Positions 2 through 15,308 of a stretch of 64,000 bases of DNA are shown here, one piece after another; positions within the stretch are counted from its first letter, which is position 1; every line of letters starts with the position of its first letter. The notes under the pieces were generated by a model, which did not search any database, was not told the DNA's origin, and worked only from the letters and a program-made list of their open reading frames with translations. The stretch lies in contig NZ_CP030265.1 in NCBI RefSeq assembly GCF_008843145.1, positions 4,767,001 to 4,831,000 of the forward strand, written 5' to 3'. Position numbers and translations under genes: made by a program. This stretch comes from Skermanella pratensis (GTDB lineage Bacteria; Pseudomonadota; Alphaproteobacteria; Azospirillales; Azospirillaceae).

Positions 2-1294
2 CTGCGCCGGCTGACGCCCCGGCTGGAGCCGCTGGGGCTGGCCGCCCTGGCCGGGATGATGCTGGCCTGGCTGCTCGGCCGGGCCGGCGACGTGCTGGCG
101 GTGGAGGAGACGGCGCTGGTCGGCATGCTGGTCGCGCTGTTCGTCTTCGTGTTCGGCCGGGCGGTGGCCCGGCGGGTCGCCTTCCCGCTGGCCTTCCTGT
201 TCTTCATGGTGCCCGTGGGCGACGCGCTGATCCCGCCGCTGCAGGATTTCACCGCCGTCTTCGCGGTGGGGCTGCTGCGCCTGATCGGCATCCCGGTGTT
301 CCACGACGGGATCATGATCGAGATCCCCAACGGGCTGTTCCGGGTCGCCGAAGCCTGCGCCGGCATCCGCTTCCTGATCGCCAACGTGGTGATCGCGGCC
401 CTGTTCGCCCACCTCGCCTATGCCAGGCTCTGGAAGTTCTGGCTTTTCCTGGGCATCGGCTTCGTCCTGCCGATCGTCGCCAACGGCTTCCGGGCGTTCG
501 GGATCATCCTGATCGCCCACCTGACCGACGGCAGGCTGGCGGCCGGCGTCGACCACCTGGTCTATGGCTGGATCTTCTTCTCCTTCGTGATGATCCTGCT
601 GCTCGCGATCGGCAACAGCTTCGCCGACCGCCGGCTGGGCGACTTCTCGCGCGAGGCGGCGGTGCCGCCCTCCGGGGCTCGCCGGGGCTGGTCCTGGCGC
701 CTGCCCCGGGCGCTGCCGGCCGTCCTGGTGGTGCTGGCGGGTCCGGCCTATGCCTGGACGGTGATGAGCCCGCCCGACATCCGGCCCGGCCCGGCGGCGC
801 TGCCGGCCCCGGACGTGGCCGGCTGGACCGCCGCCCCGCCGACCGACTGGCGGCCCGCGTTCCCCGGTGCCGACCGCACGCTGCTCGCCGGGTTCCGGGG
901 GCCGGAAGGCCGGCCCGCCGAGCTGTTCGTCGCCCACTACGCCTACCAGCGGCAGGGCTCGGAAGTGGTCTATTACGCCAACCGGCTGGAGGGGGACGGC
1001 TGGACGCGCGTCGAGAGCCGCACGGTCGAAGGCGTCGGCGGCATGCCGCCCGCCCGGCTCGACCGGATGGTGCGCGGGCAGCGCCAGCGGCTGGTGCTTT
1101 CGTGGTACTGGGTCGGCGGACGCTTCACGGCGAGCCAGTATGAGGCCAAGTTGTACCAGAGCCTCGCCACCCTGCTCGGCATCCATCCCGCAGCCGCCGC
1201 GGTCGCCCTGTCGGTCGAGCGGCCGGAGGACGCCGCGCGGTTCTTCGAGGCTTTCGCACCGGAGCCGTACCTGGAGCAGGCCGCCGCGCGATGA
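2..1294 (+). CDS. xrtA: Exosortase A fused to an EpsI domain (5' partial)
   Basis: Polytopic inner-membrane transpeptidase-like enzyme expected to cleave PEP-CTERM sorting signals. The frame is open to the window edge, so the N-terminal helices are missing. Counting from the ATG at 56, the exosortase signature is complete: Cys101 in AEACAGIRF, Arg146 in NGFRAFGI and His167 in DHLVYGW, each within hydrophobic helices. After a last helix (about residues 215-235) comes a periplasmic domain of about 170 residues (WRPAFPGADR, VYYANRL, YWVGGR) that matches EpsI, which is fused to exosortase in many XrtA systems. Genes for a small membrane protein, a protease, a glycosyltransferase and a PEP-CTERM substrate follow on the same strand, which supports the call. 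A shorter internal frame in the same region is a shadow. Confidence 0.93.
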   Translation: MRRLTPRLEPLGLAALAGMMLAWLLGRAGDVLAVEETALVGMLVALFVFVFGRAVARRVAFPLAFLFFMVPVGDALIPPLQDFTAVFAVGLLRLIGIPVFHDGIMIEIPNGLFRVAEACAGIRFLIANVVIAALFAHLAYARLWKFWLFLGIGFVLPIVANGFRAFGIILIAHLTDGRLAAGVDHLVYGWIFFSFVMILLLAIGNSFADRRLGDFSREAAVPPSGARRGWSWRLPRALPAVLVVLAGPAYAWTVMSPPDIRPGPAALPAPDVAGWTAAPPTDWRPAFPGADRTLLAGFRGPEGRPAELFVAHYAYQRQGSEVVYYANRLEGDGWTRVESRTVEGVGGMPPARLDRMVRGQRQRLVLSWYWVGGRFTASQYEAKLYQSLATLLGIHPAAAAVALSVERPEDAARFFEAFAPEPYLEQAAAR

Positions 1295-1344: not shown

Positions 1345-1527
1345 ATGGATAGCCTGCTGTTCCTGTTCTCGCTGATCGGCGTCGTGGTCATCGTCGGCTG
1401 GGCCGTGATGAACGACAGGGTCCCGGACGGCGGCAAGACCACGGGGCTGCTCGCCATGCATCACCCGGACGAGAACCAGCCGGACCGGAACAGGCACACC
1501 GCCCGCAAGCGCCGGCGCCCGCGGTGA
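1345..1527 (+). CDS. Small single-pass membrane protein in the exosortase locus
   Basis: A 60-residue protein. An N-terminal hydrophobic helix (about residues 3-21, LLFLFSLIGVVVIVGWAV) is followed by a polar tail ending in a very basic stretch (HTARKRRRPR). It starts four bases after GAGG, lies 50 nt after the exosortase stop, and its stop overlaps the GTG start of the next gene, so translational coupling is likely. I recognise no family. The tight packing between exosortase and protease genes argues that it is real and works with the exosortase membrane machinery; that role is an inference. Confidence 0.55.
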   Translation: MDSLLFLFSLIGVVVIVGWAVMNDRVPDGGKTTGLLAMHHPDENQPDRNRHTARKRRRPR

Positions 1528-2465
1528 GGGGACGCATCACGGGAGCGGCGCTGCTGGCGGTTCTCGCGCCCGCGCTCGGCGGCTGCGCGGGGCTCGCGGC
1601 ACCGGAGCCCGCCGCTCCCGCGAGCCCCGCCGGGGCGGAGGCGTTGCCGCCGGTCGTGACCTGCCATGAGCCGGGCCGGGACCTCGTCCTTCGGGTGGCC
1701 CCGGCGGAGTGCCGGGGCAGGATCATCGACGAGGCGGAGGCGGCCGCCCTGGCGACCGCCCGGGCCCGGCGGCAGCGGGCGCAGATCGTCGGTGACCGCC
1801 GCTCCCGTCCGGACGACAAGGTGGAGATCCGCAGCGCCGGCTCCGGATTCTTCATCAACGGCCAGGGGCAGGTGCTGACCGGCTTCCACGTGGTGGCGCG
1901 CTGCGCCGCGCTGACCGTCTCGACGGTCGAGGGCGGGCGGAAGCCGGCCAGCGTGGTCGTCTCCGACTACGGCATGGACCTGGCGGTGCTCCAGGCCAAA
2001 GCGAAGCCGAAGCGGTTCGCCCGCTTCAATCCGGCGCCCGAGCGCAACCGGGGCATGGACGCCTCGGTGGTCGGGTACCCGGCGCTGGGCGCCGCCACCG
2101 TCGTGCCGAGCCGCACCGCGGTTGAGGCTTGGCCGGCCCAGGTCACCTCCGACATGCTCGGCGGCGGGACGGAGTTCTCGGTCGAGGGACGCATCCGCGC
2201 CGGCCACAGCGGCAGCCCGGTCCTGGACGAGACCGGCAGGGTGATCGGCCTGATCCGCAGCAAGGTGGACGAGGTGACGACCTACCGCGAGACCGGCCGG
2301 TTCGTCGACGACGTGGCCCAGGCCGTCACCAACGAGACGATCTTCCGGTTCCTGGCGCCCCAGAACATCGCCTACACCACCCAGGCGCGCGGCCCCGCGC
2401 TGTCCGACGAGGACCTGCTGGACCGCGCCAGCGCCTTCGCCGCCCGCGTCGAATGCTGGAACTGA
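1524..2465 (+). CDS. Lipoprotein trypsin-like serine protease
   Basis: A 313-residue protein with a lipoprotein signal peptide; the lipobox LGGC places the modified Cys at residue 21. The mature part is a chymotrypsin/HtrA-fold protease domain. The apparent triad is His122 (GFHVVARC, where the His-containing motif replaces the usual TAAHC), Asp152 (GMDLAVLQ) and Ser229 (GHSGSPV). No PDZ domain follows, so this is not a full DegP. The GTG start overlaps the previous stop (GTGA), which implies coupling. A substrate cannot be read from sequence. Its place next to exosortase suggests envelope or surface protein processing. Confidence 0.8.
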   Translation: MRGRITGAALLAVLAPALGGCAGLAAPEPAAPASPAGAEALPPVVTCHEPGRDLVLRVAPAECRGRIIDEAEAAALATARARRQRAQIVGDRRSRPDDKVEIRSAGSGFFINGQGQVLTGFHVVARCAALTVSTVEGGRKPASVVVSDYGMDLAVLQAKAKPKRFARFNPAPERNRGMDASVVGYPALGAATVVPSRTAVEAWPAQVTSDMLGGGTEFSVEGRIRAGHSGSPVLDETGRVIGLIRSKVDEVTTYRETGRFVDDVAQAVTNETIFRFLAPQNIAYTTQARGPALSDEDLLDRASAFAARVECWN

Positions 2466-2469
2466 CACC

Positions 2470-3768
2470 GTGCGCCGGGACCTGACAGGCGGAAATGCCC
2501 GCTTCCTGATCGCCGTGGCGGTGCTGTTCCTGGGCACCCGGATCGGCTGGATGACGGCGGTCGACGCCGCCCCGATGAGCGACCAGCTCTGGTACTTCGA
2601 GCGGGCCGTGGGCCTGCTGAACGGCGAGGGCTATTCGGTCGGAGGGCAGCCGACGGCGTTCTGGCCGGTCGGGTACCCGGCGTTCCTGGCCGGGCTGTTC
2701 GCCCTGTCCGGTCCCGGCGTCGAGGTCGCCAAGGCCGCCAACCTCGTGCTGTCGGCGGCGGCGCTGTTCTTCCTGTTCCGCATCGCCCGGAGAGCTGCCG
2801 GGTCGGAGACGGCGGCCCGGGTGGCGCTGGTGCTGGCGGTTCTGTCGCCGACGCTGATCTTCTACACCGAACTGCTCTATGCCGAACTGCTGTTCATGGC
2901 TCTGCTGCTGGCCGGCCTGGACGCGCTGCTGGAGGCACTGGACCGGCCCGGCTGGCAAAGGGCGGCGCTCGCCGGCATCTGCTTCGGCCTCGCCGCACTG
3001 GTCAAGACCCAGGCGCTGCTGCTGCCGGCATGCGTGCTGGCGGCGGCCTTCGTGCTGCGCCGGGCGGGCTTGCGCCGGGCCGCGGCGCTGGGGCTGGTGC
3101 TGCACGCCGCCTGCTTCGCCGTGATAGCGCCCTGGACCTTGCGCAACGCCCTGGTCCTGGGCGAGCCGGTGCTGGTCTCGACCAATGGCGGCTTCAACCT
3201 GTTCATGGGCAACAATCCCTGGAACCGCTGGGGCAACTACATGTGGCCGGCCCCGCCCGGGTTCGCCGCGGCGACGGAAGGGCTGGACATCCTGAAGCCG
3301 ATCCCCGACGAGATCGCCCTGAACCGCCGGCTGAACCAGGCGGCCCTGTCCTATATCCGCGAGAACCCGGCGCAGGCCCTGCTCCGGGTGCCCTACAAGC
3401 TGGACCAGTTCTTCCGGTTCGACCCGCTGCCCCTGAACCAGGCGGAGATCGGCGCCCGGCGCAACGGCCAGGATGTCGGCGCCCTGGTCGCGGCGGTCAC
3501 GCCGCTGGCGCGGCTGTGGCACTGGGGCATGGTGGTGCCGGCCTTCCTGTTTCCGTTCCTGTTCCCTTGGGCGCTCCGCCCGCGCGACGCGGCGCTGGCG
3601 GCCTTCGTCCCGATCGGCTATTTCGCCGCCATCACCGGCGTCTTCTTCGGGGAGCCCCGGTTCAACCTGCCGCTGCTGCCGCTGTATGCGCTGCTCGCGG
3701 TGATGCTGGCGGCCGGCCTGCTTCGGACGGTGCCCCGGCCGGGAACGAGGTTCGGGAAGAGAGCATGA
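2470..3768 (+). CDS. Membrane glycosyltransferase, GT39/ArnT-like
   Basis: A 432-residue polytopic protein. The N-terminal helix is followed by a first periplasmic loop with acidic residues (SDQLWYFERAVGLL) and then GYSVGGQPTAFWPVGYPAFLAGLF, the layout of PMT_2/GT39 lipid-linked-sugar transferases. About ten helices follow, with the marker PWTLRNALVLGEPVLVSTN near residue 220, which is common in this family. It starts with GTG four bases after the protease stop and overlaps the next gene by ATGA. In an exosortase locus it most likely adds sugars to exopolysaccharide or surface glycoprotein; donor and acceptor are unknown. Confidence 0.82.
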   Translation: MRRDLTGGNARFLIAVAVLFLGTRIGWMTAVDAAPMSDQLWYFERAVGLLNGEGYSVGGQPTAFWPVGYPAFLAGLFALSGPGVEVAKAANLVLSAAALFFLFRIARRAAGSETAARVALVLAVLSPTLIFYTELLYAELLFMALLLAGLDALLEALDRPGWQRAALAGICFGLAALVKTQALLLPACVLAAAFVLRRAGLRRAAALGLVLHAACFAVIAPWTLRNALVLGEPVLVSTNGGFNLFMGNNPWNRWGNYMWPAPPGFAAATEGLDILKPIPDEIALNRRLNQAALSYIRENPAQALLRVPYKLDQFFRFDPLPLNQAEIGARRNGQDVGALVAAVTPLARLWHWGMVVPAFLFPFLFPWALRPRDAALAAFVPIGYFAAITGVFFGEPRFNLPLLPLYALLAVMLAAGLLRTVPRPGTRFGKRA

Positions 3769-5033
3769 GCGCTGCCGGTTCCACGGAAGCCGCCGGCCGG
3801 GTCGCCGGCCGGGTCGCAATCATCGGCGGCGGCCCGGCCGGCCTGATGGCGGCGACCGTCCTGGCGGAGGCGGGCGCCCGCGTCGAGCTGTTCGACGCCA
3901 TGCCGTCGGTCGGGCGCAAGTTCCTGCTGGCCGGGCGCGGCGGACTGAACCTGACCCATTCGGAACCCCTGGCGGACTTCCTGCAGCACTACGGCGACCG
4001 GGCGCCGGTCGTGCGGCGGTGGCTGGAGCATTTCTCCCCGGGCGACCTGCGGCTATGGGCCGCCGGTCTCGGCATCGAGACCTTCGTGGGCAGCAGCGGG
4101 CGGGTGTTCCCGGTGCAGTTCAAGGCGTCGCCGCTGCTCCGCGCCTGGCTGCGGCGTCTGGACGGCCTCGGCGTCTCCTTCCATGCGCGCCACCGCTGGA
4201 TCGGTTTCGACGACGCCGGGAAAGCCCTGGTCCGGGGTCCGGACTGTGTTTCCCGCCCCGTCGCGGCGGATGCGGTCATCCTGGCGCTGGGCGGGGCGAG
4301 CTGGCCCCGGCTGGGTTCCGACGGCGGATGGACCGGAATCCTGGAAGCCCGCGGCATCGCGGTTCGGCCGCTGCGGCCGGCCAATTGCGGGTTCGACGTC
4401 GCCTGGGAGCCGGGCTTCATCGCCCGGCACGAAGGGGAGCCGTTGAAGAACCTGGCGTTAAGCTTCGACGGCCGCACGGTCCGCGGCGAACTGGTCCTGA
4501 CCCGCACGGGGATCGAGGGCGGAGGCGTGTACGCCCTCAGCGCCCCGCTGCGCGACGCGATCGAGCGCGACGGGTCGGCCTGCCTGACGATCGACCTGCG
4601 TCCGCAGCTCTCCGCCGAGCAGGTGCGCGACCGGCTCAAGCGGCCGAGGGGGTCGGAATCCTGGTCCACCTGGCTGCGCAAGTCAGTGAATTTGACAGGT
4701 CCCCTGCCCGGACTGCTGCGCGGTGTCGCCGGAACCGACGCCGGCCCCGCCCGGATCGCCCAGCTCGTGAAGGCGTTGCCGCTCCATTTGAGCGGCATCA
4801 AGCCGATCGAGCGCGCGATTTCCTCGGCCGGAGGCATCGATCTGGACGAATTGGACGATGATCTGATGCTGCGGCGCCTTCCCGGCGTGTTCGCGGCCGG
4901 GGAAATGCTGGACTGGGAAGCGCCGACCGGCGGCTACCTGCTTCAGGCCTGCTTCGGCAGCGGCGTGGCCGCCGCCCGGGGCGTCCTGGCGAAGCTGCGT
5001 CAGGAAACTTTACACCAGCCGCCGGGCGCCTGA
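3765..5033 (+). CDS. NAD(P)/FAD-dependent oxidoreductase, HI0933/BaiN family (TIGR03862-type)
   Basis: A 422-residue flavoprotein. The dinucleotide-binding motif VAIIGGGPAGLMAATVL is near residue 17, and the family marker GRKFLLAGRGGLNLTHSE near residue 50. The C-terminal FAD contact is FAAGEMLDWEAPTGGYLLQ near residue 390. The family is widespread and generally of unknown physiological substrate. The ATG overlaps the stop of the glycosyltransferase (ATGA), so it belongs to the same operon. The frame is open upstream to 3030, but that part is the shadow of the glycosyltransferase gene, hence this start. Confidence 0.88.
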   Translation: MSAAGSTEAAGRVAGRVAIIGGGPAGLMAATVLAEAGARVELFDAMPSVGRKFLLAGRGGLNLTHSEPLADFLQHYGDRAPVVRRWLEHFSPGDLRLWAAGLGIETFVGSSGRVFPVQFKASPLLRAWLRRLDGLGVSFHARHRWIGFDDAGKALVRGPDCVSRPVAADAVILALGGASWPRLGSDGGWTGILEARGIAVRPLRPANCGFDVAWEPGFIARHEGEPLKNLALSFDGRTVRGELVLTRTGIEGGGVYALSAPLRDAIERDGSACLTIDLRPQLSAEQVRDRLKRPRGSESWSTWLRKSVNLTGPLPGLLRGVAGTDAGPARIAQLVKALPLHLSGIKPIERAISSAGGIDLDELDDDLMLRRLPGVFAAGEMLDWEAPTGGYLLQACFGSGVAAARGVLAKLRQETLHQPPGA

Positions 5034-5054
5034 AGTCAGGAACGGCAAACCCTT

Positions 5055-5085
5055 GATATGACACATACTCCCAGATATGGCACAT
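5055..5085 (+). repeat. 12-nt direct repeat over the PEP-CTERM promoter
   Basis: GATATGACACAT at 5055-5066 and GATATGGCACAT at 5074-5085 differ at one position and start 19 nt apart. The second copy includes the -24 element of the sigma-54 promoter. The first copy has GA instead of GG, so it may be an upstream half-promoter or part of a regulator site. Confidence 0.6.
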
Positions 5086-5092
5086 GCCTTGC
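5078..5092 (+). promoter_or_regulatory. Sigma-54 (RpoN) promoter of the PEP-CTERM gene
   Basis: TGGCACATGCCTTGC matches the -24/-12 consensus TGGCAC-N5-TTGC exactly, with the invariant GG and GC doublets 10 nt apart. Transcription would begin near 5104, 34 nt before the ATG at 5138, leaving room for the TTGGAGGA ribosome binding site (5123-5130). RpoN control of PEP-CTERM genes through the PrsK/PrsR two-component pair is established in other bacteria; no prsK or prsR lies in this window. Confidence 0.85.
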
Positions 5093-5137
5093 TTGCTTCT
5101 CCGGGCAATCGCGGTTTGCGACTTGGAGGAAAATCTA

Positions 5138-5919
5138 ATGAAGTGCATTGTCAAGAAGGCCATGACTGCAGCCGCCGTCGGCGCGGTCGTGGCGCTGGGC
5201 GCGGGATCGGCCATGGCGGCGCCGACGCCGGTCGCCGGCGTCATCGTCGGGGGCCCGGCGAGACCACGTTCAAGTTCTCGAACCTGACCGAGACCTTCGT
5301 CGACAGCGTCGGCGACGAACTGTTCGGCTTCGGCCGCGTCACCCAGATCAACGACCTGAACGAAGGCGAGTTCTGCGTCGCCGGCCCCTGCGAACTGACC
5401 TACACCTTCACGGACTACACCGTCACCAGCTTCGATCCGACGGGAGTGGGCGACAACACCGCGGTGTTCGACGGCGGCATCATCAACTTCTTCCTCGACG
5501 ACTCGCCGGATTCGAGCCTGGAAAACATCACCGGCTTCGACGACGGCACCCCGTGGCTGTCGCTGGTCGGGCTCACAAGCACCGAGACGACCGGTCCCAA
5601 CGCGGGTGCCACCGGTACGCTGTTCAGCTTCGGCACCTCTTTCGCCGAATCCGAACTGATCCGCGGCTTCGGTGCCGGCAACCTGTCGATCACGGGCGGC
5701 GAAGCCGCCGAATACTTCGGCTTCGGCACCCCGGTGACGCTCAGCAGCAGCTTCCAGCCGTCGCCCGCCGGCTGGGCGCTGCCGCTGTCCGGCACGGCCG
5801 AGCTGCAGGTGATCGCCCAGGTCCCGACCGAGGTTCCGGAGCCCGCCACCCTTGCCCTGCTGGGCATGGGCCTGGTGGGGCTCGGGGCAGCCGCCCGGCG
5901 GTCGCGCAAGGCCGCCTGA
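5138..5919 (+). CDS. PEP-CTERM sorting-domain protein (apparent frameshift near 5249-5256)
   Basis: Secreted exosortase substrate. From ATG 5138 a signal peptide is read (MKCIVKKAMTAAAVGAVV, cleavage after SAMA). The frame is then lost in the run GGGGGCCC at 5249-5256 and the rest is read one frame over, beginning GETTFKFSNL. One extra G would give one continuous protein of about 260 residues. The C-terminus is a classic sorting signal: VPEPATLALLGMGLVGLG followed by AAARRSRKAA, meaning the Pro-Glu-Pro motif, a hydrophobic helix and a basic tail. The middle is acidic, Gly/Thr-rich and low in Lys. A sigma-54 promoter lies just upstream and a terminator downstream, so it is its own transcription unit. 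The break is probably a sequencing undercall. Confidence 0.85.
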
Positions 5920-5952
5920 CCGCTCCGACCTCCACGGAGCGTAGACGTGACG

Positions 5953-5980
5953 AAGGCCCGGGAGCGATCCCGGGCCTTTT
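5953..5980. terminator. Rho-independent terminator between convergent genes
   Basis: Stem GGCCCGGGA (5955-5963), loop GCGA and stem TCCCGGGCC (5968-5976), flanked by AA and TTTT, so it can stop transcription from both sides. It separates the PEP-CTERM gene from the convergent ThiF-nitroreductase gene. Confidence 0.92.
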
Positions 5981-5995
5981 GTCCTTGGACGTCGT

Positions 5996-8062
5996 TCAGG
6001 CGCTGCGGGCGACGGCCGGGTCCTGCTTCAGCTCCTCCCCGTCCGTCCGGCGGGCGTCGCCGACGATCAGGTCTTCCAGCGGCCTGCGGTGCGAGCGGCT
6101 GGCCGGGCGGGTCGTCTTGGGACGGCCGATGCGGCCCATGAAGATCAAGGCATCGACCTCGTGGCCGGACACCCGACCCAGTTCGACCGCCAGCTTTTCC
6201 GCCTTGGCGATCAGCTTCGGCGCCTCCGTGAACCGCGTTCCGGCGACGGCGTAGCTGGCGAAGGCGAGCGGCGCCAAGCTGGGCTGCAACGCCAAGCCCA
6301 GCTTGGCGGCGGTCAGCCAGAAGCGTTGCAGCCGCTGCCCGGCGGCCAGTAGTTCCTCCGCCGTCGGCCGGGTGGCGCGGGGGGTGCTCCAGCCGATCGT
6401 GAAATGCCCGGCGCAGGCCATTCCCGGCAGGATGTCCAGCTGAAGCCTGGCGGCCCCCGTCCCCAGCAGGTTCATCCGCTCGACCCGCGACCAGTCCTCC
6501 ATGGCCCAGCGCATAAGCTTGCGGGTCGTGCCGTCGAGGCCGATGGCGGTGGACGGCAGGCCGTGCGGGCTGAACGGGTTCTCCCAGTCGATCATCCGGC
6601 GGTGGACGTCGAAGGCCTCCCGGCAGCGCAGGCGGATGTCGGTGGCCAGCCCGTTGAGGCGGGAGAACTTCCAGCGCTCTCCCCGGCTCTCGAACCAGGA
6701 GAGGGTCAGGTCGGGACCCAGCGCCTCGGCCAGCGCATCCTTCTGCGCCTGCGTCAGGCTGTCGCGCTTGTAGGCGGTCCGGTCGACCGACCGCAGCTTG
6801 ACGAAACCTTCCAGCGGGTCGGGACGGATGCCCGGCTGCTTCGGCAGCCTGACCTTGATCCGGCTCTCCGGCCGGCCCGTTTCGGCGGAGGTCGCGCGTT
6901 GGTGCGTCCACTCCATCCGCCGCCCGAACCGGGATGCCGCGATGGCCATGGTCTCCAGCAGATGGCCGACCGACAGCAGCGTCGGCTGGCCGTCGGCATA
7001 TTCGTAGACGTTGGCGCCCGCCTCGTTCCGGACCAGCACGGTCACCGAGTCGTCTCCGTCGATATGGAAGCGCCAGGGCTGGCTGTTGTCGCCGCTGGGC
7101 GCCCAACGGGCGAGGTCGAGGATCCGCTCGATCTCCGAGGCGCGCGGCTCCGGCTTCGCCTGGGGGGCGTTGCGGGCGATCGCCTGCATCATGCGCATGC
7201 CCAGCTTCTGCTTGAACCGCTGGCCGACATGCCGGCTGCCGCCCGGCAGCTTCTTGCTGACGAAACGGCCGCGGTAGGCGTCGAACTGGTGGAACCAGGG
7301 AGCGGCCTTTACGCCGCCGCGGTTCAGCAGGATGCGGAGCGCCTCGATCCCGGTGACTCCGGCGCAGATCTGGCAGGCCATGCCGGTGGACGGTCCGCGC
7401 TGGTTGACCAGGTCCAGCCGGGACGGATCGACCAGATAGGAGCGGTGCAGTCCGCGCGGCGTCAGCCCGACCAGGAAATTGACGTATTGCTGCTCGATCG
7501 GCTGGCCTTCCAGGCCGAAATACTGCTCGAACGTCATGCCGCCGGGCATGAAGACCAGATAGGCGGTGCCCATGCCGATCGGTCCGGCGGTGATCGCCGG
7601 GATGCCCAGCTCGGCGCAGCGGGCGAACACCTTGGCACGCATGTCCAGGACGAAGAAGTCGAAGCCGTCGATGAACAGGTCGGCGCCGTCCAGGAACTCG
7701 TCGATGTTGTCGTCGCCGATACCATTTGGAAAACGCCGGATCTCGGCGGTCGGGTTGATGTCGCGCGCCATGCCGGCCATCACGTCGACCTTCGGCCGCC
7801 CGAGCGTGGCGGTGCTGGCGCCGATCTGCCGGTTGAAGTTGACCGTCTCGAAGACGTCCATGTCCGAGATGTTGAACGCGCCGATGCCCAGCCGCGCCAG
7901 CGTCAGCAGATGGACTCCGCCGACGCCGCCCATGCCGGCGATGGCGACCCGCTTGGTGCGCAGGATCTGCTGCTCCCACTCGGTGACCCACCCGATGTTG
8001 CGGCTGAATGCCTCGTCATAGTCGAAGTCGGAACCGCGCACAGGCATGGTCATGGTCGGCAT
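5996..8062 (-). CDS. ThiF/E1-like adenylyltransferase fused to a nitroreductase domain (Rv1355c-like)
   Basis: About 688 residues. Residues 10-290 form a ThiF/MoeB/E1-type nucleotide-binding domain: GMGGVGGVHLLTLARLG binds ATP and DVFETVNFNRQ carries the conserved Arg. Such domains adenylate a carboxyl group. From about residue 305 a nitroreductase-like FMN fold begins, with the signature RWAPSGDNSQPWRF. This fusion matches actinobacterial Rv1355c proteins, often labelled MoeY; a role in molybdopterin synthesis is not supported here. ATG 8062 is chosen because GAGGA precedes it; TTG 8071 and ATG 8053 are alternatives. It lies 54 nt downstream of the acyltransferase gene on the same strand, so the two are probably co-transcribed. 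A pathway using an acylated amino compound that is then adenylated and oxidised is my inference. Confidence 0.82.
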   Translation of the reverse strand: MPTMTMPVRGSDFDYDEAFSRNIGWVTEWEQQILRTKRVAIAGMGGVGGVHLLTLARLGIGAFNISDMDVFETVNFNRQIGASTATLGRPKVDVMAGMARDINPTAEIRRFPNGIGDDNIDEFLDGADLFIDGFDFFVLDMRAKVFARCAELGIPAITAGPIGMGTAYLVFMPGGMTFEQYFGLEGQPIEQQYVNFLVGLTPRGLHRSYLVDPSRLDLVNQRGPSTGMACQICAGVTGIEALRILLNRGGVKAAPWFHQFDAYRGRFVSKKLPGGSRHVGQRFKQKLGMRMMQAIARNAPQAKPEPRASEIERILDLARWAPSGDNSQPWRFHIDGDDSVTVLVRNEAGANVYEYADGQPTLLSVGHLLETMAIAASRFGRRMEWTHQRATSAETGRPESRIKVRLPKQPGIRPDPLEGFVKLRSVDRTAYKRDSLTQAQKDALAEALGPDLTLSWFESRGERWKFSRLNGLATDIRLRCREAFDVHRRMIDWENPFSPHGLPSTAIGLDGTTRKLMRWAMEDWSRVERMNLLGTGAARLQLDILPGMACAGHFTIGWSTPRATRPTAEELLAAGQRLQRFWLTAAKLGLALQPSLAPLAFASYAVAGTRFTEAPKLIAKAEKLAVELGRVSGHEVDALIFMGRIGRPKTTRPASRSHRRPLEDLIVGDARRTDGEELKQDPAVARSA

Positions 8063-8116
8063 GTTCCTCAAAATCGCGTCCCGGGCGGCCGGTTCGTCCC
8101 TGTCAGCGCTCCCCGG

Positions 8117-9001
8117 TCAGTTGGCGACCGCCAGGCAGGCCGACCGGGAAGGAGCGGTGACCGCGACCGCTTCGGCCGGGCTCGTTTCATCCAGCGGCCA
8201 CAGGCGGCCGCCATCGGTAATGATTTCCCACACGTCGGGACGCTCGGCATGGACGCGCCGCAGCAGGGCGCCGAGGTCGGCCCAGCAGGGCTGCCGCCGT
8301 CCATGGTAATCGACCAGCGATCCCAGCGGGTTGAAATGGATGCCGAGGCGGGTCAGCAGCCGAAGCAAAGCCGGCTCCATCACCGCGGCCCAGTGGGTGA
8401 TTCCCTCGCGCACGCTCATCTCGACACAGGATTTAATGAGCCCGAGCGGCAGATGAAAGAGCATCTTGCGCCATTCTTCGGGAGACAGGGTCGCTTCGAC
8501 CCCGGTTTCCGGCACGTGCTGGCGGAAACTCTTGACGATCGAGAAGCGCGAGATCTCGGCCGTGCGGTAGACCGGGAACGGGGCCACGGAGTCGGCGGCG
8601 ATCGCGCCGGCGATCCGCTGCATCGGCAGCACGCGGCGCTCCCCGCCGTCCTGCGGCAGCACGAGGCGGACCGTGCCGATGGCGTTGCCGGTGGCGCGAT
8701 GGGTCAGCAGGGAATGGACGGAATGACCGTCGAAGGAGTCACGCTCGAACCCGTCAGGGTTGTTCGCGGGGTCCTCGAACTCGTTATCGATGCAGTAAAC
8801 CTGAAAACGAATACGGAAACAGTTGTTCTTAAGTTCTGATGTCGTCGCGACGGAAGAGCCAAAAACCGAATTGTAATATTCAAGGCCGGTGAAACCAGTA
8901 GACTTTCGAGAGGCCGTGATATCGTTCGTGAGTGAAGTGGCGTTGCCGATGGCGTGCCCTTCGGATACGAGCCGCTCAACTCCAGATCTCGAATGGTACA
9001 T
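8117..9001 (-). CDS. PEP-CTERM/exosortase system-associated acyltransferase (autoinducer-synthase-like)
   Basis: A 294-residue GNAT-fold protein of the TIGR03694 type. Visible markers are YYNSVFGSS, FRIRFQVYCIDNEFED (the RYxVYC element shared with LuxI-like synthases), GTVRLVLP and AEISRFSIVKSFR. Relatives transfer acyl chains from acyl carrier protein or CoA to an amine. The product in PEP-CTERM systems is not established. ATG 9001 is preferred: GGAAGA lies six bases upstream and homology begins about 45 residues in. The frame runs open to 9253, but that part looks non-coding. The 5' third of the gene is clearly richer in A+T than its neighbours. It probably forms an operon with the ThiF-nitroreductase gene. 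Confidence 0.85.
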   Translation of the reverse strand: MYHSRSGVERLVSEGHAIGNATSLTNDITASRKSTGFTGLEYYNSVFGSSVATTSELKNNCFRIRFQVYCIDNEFEDPANNPDGFERDSFDGHSVHSLLTHRATGNAIGTVRLVLPQDGGERRVLPMQRIAGAIAADSVAPFPVYRTAEISRFSIVKSFRQHVPETGVEATLSPEEWRKMLFHLPLGLIKSCVEMSVREGITHWAAVMEPALLRLLTRLGIHFNPLGSLVDYHGRRQPCWADLGALLRRVHAERPDVWEIITDGGRLWPLDETSPAEAVAVTAPSRSACLAVAN

Positions 9002-9684
9002 GGTGTCTTCCAATTTGTTTTTGGTTGCACAAACCACCGTGGCCCGGTGATGGCGGCTCCTGCTCATGGTCTCCCGGCGACGGTATGGCCCCGGTCGCAC
9101 GTGTCTCGGCGCAGCCGCGCTGGCCCGGCATTGCCTCACGGTGTGACACGGAGCGGGGGCAAGTCCCGGGAGATCCCCGGATGGCTCCCCGCGCCCGATG
9201 CCGTTCAGCGCAGCCGAATGCAGCGAGCGAACTGCAAATTCGCACTTCAACAAGTCGCTACAAGGGAAACGGGCCTTGTAAGGCCAGGCCGCTTACAGCA
9301 GATCAAGCATAAAGTCGGATATACGGTTCTTCGCCATGTATCAAAGCACTCAAAAGTTAAATCTCACTTAATTGAGCGCAGTTCAACTTTATGCCACGGT
9401 CGCGAATGTATTCGAAATAGAGAAAAATTTGACGTGGCAAAGATGTGACCTCGATGAGAATTGCTGTGACTTTCAGGAGCTAATCCTGTGAATTTTCCGG
9501 CATAATCATCGTCAATTTCGAAGGATGATCAGCTTATTCAATTAACCGATTTGCAAAGATTCATTGTCCTCGACGCGGTTACGCCGGCCCGCGGAGTCCG
9601 GCTGAACCCGGTTGTCCCGGGGCTGCGAAACCGTCATTCTGAAGCCGGCTTTCGGCAGGCGAGACCGGCGAGGACGGTGAAAGA
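9002..9684. other. Non-coding region upstream of the acyltransferase, AT-rich from about 9240
   Basis: This 683-nt stretch between divergent genes has no convincing reading frame. About 9240-9560 is strikingly AT-rich for this chromosome (for example around 9350-9440 and 9520-9570). It must hold the promoters for the acyltransferase (leftward) and pxpA (rightward). I see no clear LuxR-type dyad and no strong sigma-54 site. A long untranslated leader or small RNA is possible but unsupported. Confidence 0.6.
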
Positions 9685-10467
9685 ATGGCAGGGGTTTCCC
9701 GGGTTGACCTGAACTGTGACATGGGCGAGAGCTTCGGCGTCTACACGCTGGGCAACGACGCCGACATGCTGAAGATCGTCACCAGCGCGAACGTCGCCTG
9801 CGGGTTCCACGCCGGCGATCCCCTGGTGATCGACCGCACCGTGCGACTCGCCCTCGACGCGGGCGTGGCGGTCGGCGCCCATCCCAGCTTCCTGGACCAG
9901 TGGGGTTTCGGCCGCCGCCCGATCCTGGGGGAGGACCCGGCCGACATCGAGAAGATGCTGGTCTACCAGATCGGCGCGGTGCAGGCGCTCGCCGCCGCCG
10001 CAGGCCACCGGGTCACGCATGTCAAGGCGCACGGCTCGCTGGGCAACATGGCGGCGGTTGATCCCGACCTGGCCCTGGCCTGCGCCCGGGCGGTGCGGGC
10101 CGTCGACCGCGACCTGATCTGCGTCGTCATGCCCGGGATGGAGACCGAGCGCGCCGCCGAACGGATGGGCCTGAGGATCGCGCGGGAGATCTATGCCGAC
10201 CGCACCTATGACGACAACGGCAACCTGACATCGCGCAAGAAGCCCGGCGCCGTGCTGCACGACGCCGGGGCGGCGGCGGGCCGGGTCGTCCGCATGCTGG
10301 AGGAGGAGGCGATCACGACGGTGAGCGGCGCCCGGATCCCGTCACGGATCGATACCATCTGCGTCCACGGCGACAATCCGCAGGCGGTCGGGATGGCGCG
10401 GACGATCCGCGGGCGCCTGGAAGCCCTCGGTATCGCGATCGAACCGTTCAGCCGGACCCTGGCGTGA
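9685..10467 (+). CDS. pxpA: 5-oxoprolinase subunit PxpA (LamB/YcsF family)
   Basis: A 260-residue protein of typical length for the family. N-terminal VDLNCDMGESFG, SANVACGFHAGDP and GAHPSFLDQWGFGRR are PxpA hallmarks, with metal/substrate-binding Asp, Glu and His residues. With PxpB and PxpC it forms the ATP-dependent 5-oxoprolinase that opens pyroglutamate to glutamate. The partner genes pxpB and pxpC are not adjacent, which is unusual, so they must lie elsewhere or be absent. A GGTGAAAG-type ribosome binding site precedes ATG 9685. Confidence 0.9.
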   Translation: MAGVSRVDLNCDMGESFGVYTLGNDADMLKIVTSANVACGFHAGDPLVIDRTVRLALDAGVAVGAHPSFLDQWGFGRRPILGEDPADIEKMLVYQIGAVQALAAAAGHRVTHVKAHGSLGNMAAVDPDLALACARAVRAVDRDLICVVMPGMETERAAERMGLRIAREIYADRTYDDNGNLTSRKKPGAVLHDAGAAAGRVVRMLEEEAITTVSGARIPSRIDTICVHGDNPQAVGMARTIRGRLEALGIAIEPFSRTLA

Positions 10468-14138: not shown

Positions 14139-15308
14139 TTGCGGAAATTTAGCGATAAACTCGAATATCAGCCGGCAAAATCCTGTATCGTCTTCCGTCC
14201 GCGTCTGGAAGACTATATCGCCCGGTTCGATCGATTGCGCCTCGTGCTTCTGTCGGGGCCTTCCGGCATCGGCAAGACGACCCTGCTGGCACGCTGGCAT
14301 GCGATCGCGCGCAACCGCGGCAGTGCCACGGGATGGCTCTCCCTGCATCGCAACGGCCATGATCCGAAGCGTTTCCTGGCGGATCTCGCGGAGGTGCTCG
14401 AACCGGTCCTGCCCGCCTTCGGGCGGCGGGTCTCAAATCTTCATGCCGGCGGGTCCCAGCCGATCCTGGAGGAGGTCCTGTGCGATCTGGCGGGGGAGCT
14501 GGACCGCCTGGGACGCCAGATGGTCCTGTTCCTGGACGATTACCAGGCGGTGACCGACCCGGCGGTCCATCGCGACGTCAACCGGATGCTGAGCGGCCTG
14601 CCCGCCTGTTTCACCCTGGTGATCGCGACGCGCGCCGATCCGCCGCTGCCGCTCGCGCGCCTTCGCGGCTGCGGGACGCTGCTGGAACTGCGCGCCGCCG
14701 ACCTGCGATTCACCCTGGACGAGGCGCGTTACTACCTGACGCGGGTCCAGGCCCTGGACCTTGCCGAGGATCAGGTCCGGGAAGTGACGGAGAAGACGGA
14801 AGGCCGGATCTCGGCCCTTCAGCTGGCCGTGCTGACCCGGCGCCTGATGGCGAAGGAACGGGACGCCTTGCCGGAGATCCGCCACCGCGCCGACCAGTGG
14901 CTCGGGAGGGCCGACCCCGATCGGCCCGATGGCCCCCCCCAGCCCGACGACCTGCTGCTCCGAGGCTTCGCCGCCGTCATGGTGGGTTATGCGGCGGGCG
15001 CCGCAAGCGACCTGGAATCCGCGATGGCCCAGTGCCGTGACGCGATCGAGATATCCGGCCGCGTGCTGGAGACCCTCCAGCCCGAAGCGGCGCGGCCGGC
15101 GCCCGCGTCGTCGGACCGCCTGCACCACCGCGAAATCCAGATCCTGCGGCTCGTTTCGGAAGGGTTGCGCAACCGCCAGATCGGCGAGCGACTGCGCATC
15201 TCGGAAGACACGGTCAAATGGTACATGAAAAGGTTGTTCGCCAAACTGTACGTCACCACCCGGACAAGCGCGGTCGCGCGGGGCAGGGAAATGGGCTATC
15301 TGCCGTAG
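14139..15308 (+). CDS. Short MalT/LAL-like LuxR-family transcription regulator
   Basis: A 389-residue protein. The N-terminal STAND-type ATPase has Walker A GPSGIGKTTLLARW, Walker B VLFLDDYQ and the sensor VIATRADPPLPLARL typical of MalT-like regulators. The C-terminal LuxR helix-turn-helix is LHHREIQILRLVSEGLRNRQIGERL-type. Classic MalT/LAL proteins are about 900 residues with a long TPR-like sensor region. Here only about 80 residues, including a Pro/Asp-rich linker (RADPDRPDGPPQPDD), connect ATPase and DNA-binding domain. The TTG start at 14139 is the only one before Walker A that I can support. Confidence 0.8.
   Translation: MRKFSDKLEYQPAKSCIVFRPRLEDYIARFDRLRLVLLSGPSGIGKTTLLARWHAIARNRGSATGWLSLHRNGHDPKRFLADLAEVLEPVLPAFGRRVSNLHAGGSQPILEEVLCDLAGELDRLGRQMVLFLDDYQAVTDPAVHRDVNRMLSGLPACFTLVIATRADPPLPLARLRGCGTLLELRAADLRFTLDEARYYLTRVQALDLAEDQVREVTEKTEGRISALQLAVLTRRLMAKERDALPEIRHRADQWLGRADPDRPDGPPQPDDLLLRGFAAVMVGYAAGAASDLESAMAQCRDAIEISGRVLETLQPEAARPAPASSDRLHHREIQILRLVSEGLRNRQIGERLRISEDTVKWYMKRLFAKLYVTTRTSAVARGREMGYLP

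Follow-up and report, generated by a model that had tools for sequence, protein, structure and literature searches.

A candidate oxazolone biosynthesis gene pair and its association with the exosortase system in Skermanella pratensis

The Question Raised by the Locus

In a stretch of 64,000 nucleotides of the Skermanella pratensis genome, hereafter called the window (contig NZ_CP030265.1, positions 4,767,001 to 4,831,000), two neighboring minus-strand genes encode an acyltransferase and a protein in which a ThiF-type adenylation domain is fused to a nitroreductase-type flavin domain. Genes for exosortase A and a PEP-CTERM surface protein are found in the same region. The locus raises the question of what this pair makes and whether its product belongs to the exosortase system. 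The answer favored here, with a probability of about 85%, is that the pair is a candidate OxzAB-type oxazolone (azlactone) biosynthesis operon, its reactions being those of published relatives. This assignment is made because of the architecture of the pair, the predicted folds, the conserved residues and the genomic linkage, together with the reactions of those relatives.

Oxazolone chemistry was first described in 2021 for OxzA and OxzB of Pseudoalteromonas rubra by de Rond, Asay and Moore (as cited in PMC12856293 and PMC10404671). OxzA acylates tyrosine or phenylalanine, and OxzB, a fusion of ThiF and a flavin oxidase, cyclises and desaturates the product (PMC12856293; PMC10404671). The arrangement of an acyltransferase gene beside a gene for such a fusion is the same in the window, where the comparison is one of architecture, not of sequence. 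The same three activities are present in TyzACB and TrzAS of Mycobacterium (PMC10404671; PMC12856293). TrzS is likewise a ThiF–flavin oxidase fusion and uses tryptophan (PMC12856293), whereas TyzB and TyzC are separate proteins.

The Acyltransferase

The two genes are separated by 63 nt and both reading frames are open, which, with the family matches of the encoded proteins, bears out the pair that the first-pass annotation of this DNA had described. The acyltransferase reached 241.6 bits (cut-off 111.95) against TIGR03694, the NCBIfam family named 'PEP-CTERM/exosortase system-associated acyltransferase', and it counts as a member by its score over the curated cut-off and by the presence of XrtA in the same genome. 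It also matched Pfam Acetyltransf_5 above the cut-off (49.5 bits), but with 19.4 bits it remained below the cut-off of 24 for Pfam Autoind_synth and does not qualify as a LuxI autoinducer synthase. In contrast, the structural matches of its AlphaFold model (mean predicted local distance difference test score, pLDDT, 83.3) were N-acyl-homoserine lactone (AHL) synthases and FeeM. Thus, the earlier description as autoinducer-synthase-like is appropriate for the fold but not for the family. Residues R65, E86, D91, R112, E149 and R152 are invariant in all 36 rows of an author-selected alignment (A2). A similar order is known for the catalytic residues of LuxI enzymes (Arg, Asp, Arg, Glu, Arg). Extra TIGR03694 copies above the cut-off, apart from the pair, were seen in two genomes of the same genus, G285 (contig C245, two copies) and G288 (contig C50, one copy).

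The ThiF–Nitroreductase Fusion Protein

Both domains of the fusion were recognized by Pfam above the cut-offs (ThiF, 142.4 bits; Nitroreductase, 37.8 bits), and the protein scored 433.1 against PRK08223 (cut-off 266). Its matches to PRK14851, PRK14852 and the Rv1355c family were below the cut-offs; with 120.8 bits against 476 for NF005901, the NCBI model of the Rv1355c family, it is not an equivalog of TrzS. When its AlphaFold model (mean pLDDT 89.8) was compared with solved structures, E. coli ThiF ranked first, AclA, MoeB and MccB were also found, and the Acg nitroreductase (2YMV) was at rank 42. The latter was reached in two ways, by a profile search and by the fold search (template-modelling score 0.71 by target). 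The flavin domain thus represents the Acg/flavin-dependent oxidase (FDO) type within the nitroreductase superfamily, and its fusion to ThiF, as well as the position of a gene for a LuxI/FeeM-fold N-acyltransferase directly beside the ThiF gene, are the hallmarks of an OxzAB-type pair.

The closest sequences in the PDB to the ThiF domain are those of TcdA structures. In TcdA, adenylation of a carboxylate is followed by ring closure. A reaction of this type is proposed for the ThiF domain. The first-pass annotation had made the loss of catalytic residues a test of its proposal. No such loss was found in the ATP site, which was also aligned with TcdA and ThiF: G40, G42, G43, G45, D66, N74, R75, Q76, K88 and D132 are invariant in all 42 rows of an alignment (A3) of the window protein with 41 relatives, picked from the 68 of 80 named loci with an unsplit protein (in the other 12, ThiF and the oxidase are split). 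In the flavin domain, R474 is present in 42 and Q590 in 41 of these rows. They are candidate equivalents of R540 and Q651 of TrzS, matched by their spacing and not by alignment with a TrzS sequence. The authors of the TrzS study also found 2YMV to be nearest to the flavin domain of their enzyme (PMC12856293).

The partnership of the two genes recurs. An acyltransferase of the TIGR03694 type is encoded within 1 kb of the ThiF gene in 42 of the 80 named loci and anywhere in the stretch in 51, and 11 of the other 29 loci contain a FeeM-type acyltransferase. A plasmid of Nitratidesulfovibrio (locus L128, 5068-7992) even encodes a single 974-aa protein, annotated 'ThiF family adenylyltransferase', that comprises a FeeM-type acyltransferase, ThiF and nitroreductase. 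An XrtA/PEP-CTERM glycosyltransferase gene and three PEP-CTERM genes are located within 6 kb of it. The acyltransferase of the window and the FeeM-type region of the plasmid-encoded protein did not match each other in phmmer or profile searches, which indicates two types of one fold; hence, the plasmid fusion offers support by analogy, not by orthology.

Proposed Chemistry

In the proposed route, the TIGR03694 acyltransferase would first transfer a fatty acyl group, from acyl-coenzyme A or acyl-acyl carrier protein, to the amine of an L-amino acid, with tyrosine and phenylalanine as the most probable substrates. These are considered likelier than tryptophan because the score of the fusion falls well short of the cut-off for the Rv1355c family, to which the tryptophan-using TrzS belongs. 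The ThiF domain would then adenylate the free carboxylate with ATP, after which the amide oxygen would expel AMP and a five-membered oxazolone ring would be formed. Finally, the flavin domain may desaturate the α-β bond using O2. The predicted product is an N-acyl oxazolone, or an N-acyl dehydro-amino acid once water has opened the ring, and it may serve as an accessory compound of bacteria with an exosortase/exopolysaccharide system, probably acting in the biofilm or matrix.

Experiments on TrzS illustrate the steps. When ATP was omitted, only the N-acyl amino acid was found, and at low O2 the cyclised, saturated compound accumulated. The D217A variant yielded neither the cyclised nor the desaturated product, the R540A variant had impaired activity, with a build-up of the cyclised intermediate, and both variants bound less flavin mononucleotide (FMN) (PMC12856293). 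For TyzACB, the order of cyclisation and desaturation is not obligate (PMC12856293). The first-pass annotation supposed that an amino compound is acylated, activated and oxidised, which agrees well with the activities of these relatives, carboxylate adenylation included, and of OxzAB (PMC12856293; PMC10404671). The step absent from its scheme is the intramolecular ring closure, and its view that the product is undescribed has to be abandoned, as N-acyl oxazolones and N-acyl dehydrotyrosines have both been described.

Several observations weigh against an OxzAB-type assignment. The likeness to OxzB is one of architecture, as the 80 loci compared do not include that of the characterized P. rubra OxzB. 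In a quick tree, the fusion groups in a clade of mainly alphaproteobacterial proteins, away from most of the gammaproteobacterial relatives. Neither type of acyltransferase was recognized in the stretches of 18 of the 80 loci, some of which are on short contigs. Finally, the clusters for stieleriacines, kyonggic acids and thalassotalic acids combine an N-acyl amino acid synthase with ThiF and nitroreductase as the window does (PMC12479983; PMC7293339), and no oxazolone was observed in the producers (PMC12479983). Hence, the end product may be an open dehydro-amino acid. In contrast to the window, however, ThiF and nitroreductase are encoded by separate genes in these clusters, and Stieleria adds a methyltransferase.

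The last observation lends some credit to an alternative with an N-acyl dehydro-amino acid of the stieleriacine/thalassotalic acid type as the product, the oxazolone being a transient activated form on the way to desaturation that water or another nucleophile then opens. In TrzS, ring closure comes before desaturation, and the ring opens readily in acid or alcohols (PMC12856293). However, oxazolones themselves have been reported from OxzAB and TyzACB (PMC12856293; PMC10404671), and the pair does not include a hydrolase gene. This alternative is possible, but it appears clearly less probable than the formation of an oxazolone as such.

Association With Exosortase

A link between N-acyl amino acid synthases and exosortase was drawn in 2011 (Craig, Cherry and Brady, as cited in PMC7293339 and PMC4897644). 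The PEP-CTERM/exosortase neighborhood of those synthases is the same as here; as cited, the link was made for the synthase, whereas in the present case it extends to the cyclase/oxidase. A PEP-CTERM gene was also noted in the stieleriacine cluster of Stieleria maiorica (PMC7293339). In the open-licence library searched, a single paper mentions exosortase and oxazolone jointly, in relation to a methanobactin-type oxazolone and NasY and not to the link of the pair; it follows that PMC10404671 and PMC12856293 make no mention of exosortase. Neither did that library contain anything that combines at least three of nitroreductase, ThiF, autoinducer synthase and exosortase.

In a phylum sample of 398 genomes, the ThiF family was found in 16 genomes, exosortase in 79 and TIGR03694 in 31. 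The ThiF family is defined here by NF011424 at an E-value of 1e-50, which is below the curated cut-off of that model in all 16 genomes and also picks up ThiF proteins encoded beside, rather than fused to, the oxidase. Exosortase was present in 15 of these 16 genomes, as compared with 79 of 398 overall (Fisher p 1.2e-10). As genomes are related, the count was also made by genus, which is the only way in which kinship was handled, and exosortase was then found in 11 of 12 ThiF-family genera versus 62 of 213 (p 5.9e-6). The genome without exosortase, G616, is also one of the two ThiF-family genomes, with G564, that lack TIGR03694, which is present in the other 14. Of the 24 genomes with both exosortase and TIGR03694, 14 have the ThiF family, as opposed to 1 of the 55 that have exosortase but not TIGR03694 and none of the 7 that have TIGR03694 but not exosortase. 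Thus, the whole oxazolone route, and not the acyltransferase alone, tends to accompany exosortase. The seven genomes that have TIGR03694 without exosortase (G326, G330, G577, G583, G620, G647 and G659) all come from a single family (f182), and the ThiF partner was found in none of them.

The association is also physical. When ThiF-family and exosortase genes were on the same contig, 10 of 12 pairs, in five families, lay within 50 kb of each other, where 0.95 was expected; the other two were 371 kb and 2.6 Mb apart, and three pairs on different contigs are not counted among the 12. Among 40 genomes behind the named loci (an author-chosen half of the 80, mostly isolates with some metagenome bins), exosortase was found in 37, including one of the Planctomycetota (G673) and Thiomargarita, where the match is partial and contains an internal stop. 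It was not found in Caenimonas koreensis, Fluoribacter gormanii and a Kitasatospora sp. The co-occurrence of the pair with exosortase, on which the first-pass annotation had staked its proposal, is therefore strong. Close adjacency is another matter. In a family sample of 82 genomes, the ThiF–nitroreductase protein is present in five, all of one genus, with TIGR03694 above the cut-off in the same five and XrtA in ten including these five; in each of the five, XrtA and the fusion gene are ~4-8 kb apart. Among the 80 named loci, however, exosortase was detected near the pair in only five (≤10 kb on each side, several contigs being short), with a profile that was built from the exosortase of the window and may miss divergent ones. 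The short distance seen in Skermanella is not typical.

Gene Neighborhood and Alternative Explanations

The positions of the relevant features are given in Table 1. The first-pass annotation had placed the pair directly beside both the PEP-CTERM gene and exosortase A. This is correct for the former, which converges on the fusion gene, but exosortase A lies at a distance of 4.7 kb, and four genes, among them the PEP-CTERM gene itself, separate it from the pair. The protease and glycosyltransferase genes that follow exosortase A may be part of the same surface system, and a gene for an HI0933-like flavoprotein sits between the glycosyltransferase and PEP-CTERM genes. In the 20 kb upstream of the window, genes for a polysaccharide export protein, a chain-length determinant, a polysaccharide deacetylase and FemAB, all known neighbors of XrtA, were found, as well as a tyrosine autokinase at 207.1 bits, below its cut-off of 230.65; four of the ten frames searched there gave no match. 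Upstream of the exosortase locus, a 1593-aa frame (L006, 2144-6925, minus strand) showed matches to RTX-type calcium-binding and tandem-95 repeats, all below the cut-offs.

Table 1. Positions, in the window, of the gene pair, its domains and neighboring features.
Feature	Position	Strand	Basis and remarks
oxzA-like N-acyl amino acid synthase (candidate)	8117-9001	-	TIGR03694, LuxI/FeeM fold; 294 aa; ATG at 9001, stop ending at 8117
oxzB-like ThiF cyclase + nitroreductase-family flavin oxidase fusion (candidate)	5996-8053	-	Family and fold matches; 685 aa; start approximate (~8053; candidate in-frame ATGs at 8062, 8053 and 8047)
ThiF/E1-type adenylation and cyclisation domain (predicted)	7199-8026	-	~residues 10-285; GxGGxG, D66, N74-R75-Q76, K88, D132
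Nitroreductase-fold domain, Acg/flavin-dependent oxidase type	6059-7156	-	~residues 300-665; motif RWAPSGDNSQPW
Exosortase A with fused EpsI domain	56-1294	+	Family matches; N-terminus precedes the window
Trypsin-like protease gene	1524-2465	+	Pfam; directly after exosortase A
PMT_2-type glycosyltransferase gene	2470-3768	+	Pfam; next after the protease gene
Sigma-54-like promoter sequence	5078-5093	+	Precedes the PEP-CTERM gene; evidence from position only
PEP-CTERM surface protein gene, PepA/flocculation-like	5138-5919	+	61.1 bits, below the family cut-off of 80
G+C-rich inverted repeat, terminator-like stem	5953-5978	.	Read directly; separates the oxzB-like gene from the converging PEP-CTERM gene

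The signal peptide and the mature part of the PEP-CTERM protein are encoded in different frames in the window, whereas the counterpart in S. aerolata (locus L029) is a single frame; the shift may be a genuine loss or an assembly error close to a G-rich run. A sigma-70 scan of positions 4900-9700 found nothing, and terminator-like sites were no more frequent in the scan than in shuffles; the inverted repeat in Table 1 is not listed by that scan because a longer T-run is demanded. Sigma-54-like sites numbered 7 in the window versus 5-10 in five mononucleotide shuffles. In S. aerolata, such a site is also correctly placed for the PEP-CTERM gene (L029, 12775, minus strand). Shared sigma-54 control of the pair and the PEP-CTERM gene was considered and rejected, as none was found at a threshold of 0.85 in the 700 bp upstream of the acyltransferase gene.

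The linkage with exosortase might, alternatively, reflect a shared habitat or shared mobile islands without any functional tie. The presence of a sigma-54-like site before the PEP-CTERM gene but not before the acyltransferase gene would fit this explanation, as would the poor conservation of the PEP-CTERM adjacency within the genus: among four other genomes inspected by eye, only S. aerolata shows such a gene at the locus, and none was seen in L008, L009 and L028. Moreover, the pair is sporadic. Besides its confinement to one genus in the family sample, it appeared twice in a class sample of 210 genomes, once in S. pratensis itself and once with the ThiF part alone, and in a quick tree the nearest relative outside the genus is that of Caenimonas, a betaproteobacterium without exosortase. 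This sparse distribution, with such a relative, suggests transfer between lineages. Yet, the co-occurrence in 15 of 16 and 37 of 40 genomes and the clustering within 50 kb across five families speak against this explanation, and the link is also seen in the Planctomycetota genome and near the plasmid-borne fusion of Nitratidesulfovibrio. The explanation is rather less likely than not, but it deserves to be kept in mind.

It is unlikely that the product is an autoinducer signal resembling AHLs. The LuxI-type fold of the acyltransferase would be in line with such a role, and a gene at 14139-15308 appears, as judged by eye, to encode a C-terminal LuxR-type DNA-binding domain. However, this gene is 5 kb from the pair with several genes in between, the acyltransferase fell below the Autoind_synth cut-off, and the adjacent cyclase/oxidase would be superfluous. 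Activation of a ubiquitin-like, sulphur-carrier or peptide substrate by the ThiF domain, as in MoeB, ThiF and enzymes for ribosomally synthesized and post-translationally modified peptides (RiPPs), is very improbable despite the structural matches to ThiF, MoeB, AclA and MccB, as the fusion scores far below the equivalog cut-offs (ThiF, 75.3 versus 275.25; MoeB, 56.2 versus 376.55), no carrier gene was seen among the neighbors searched (open reading frames under 90 aa being left out), and an acyltransferase partner recurs widely among the named loci.

Implications

Oxazolone chemistry and the link between N-acyl amino acid synthases and exosortase were known already; what is worth reporting here is the breadth of the tie between the pair and exosortase. 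As a long shot, oxazolone synthesis could be a functional arm of the exosortase system, in which the electrophilic N-acyl oxazolone, once released, acylates amines on PEP-CTERM proteins or in the exopolysaccharide matrix, or else provides the lipid anchor of these proteins. If so, the oxazolone ring would be a reagent for surface modification rather than a signal, and this would explain why the ThiF family is concentrated in genomes that have both exosortase and TIGR03694. To our knowledge, the chemistry of exosortase anchoring is still open. The role of bacterial oxazolones is likewise discussed as open (PMC12856293). The strong tendency of the ThiF family toward exosortase genomes, with physical clustering, offers a direct test to both fields, and proteins from such loci that NCBI annotates as 'hypothetical protein' or 'ThiF family adenylyltransferase' become candidate oxazolone synthetases.

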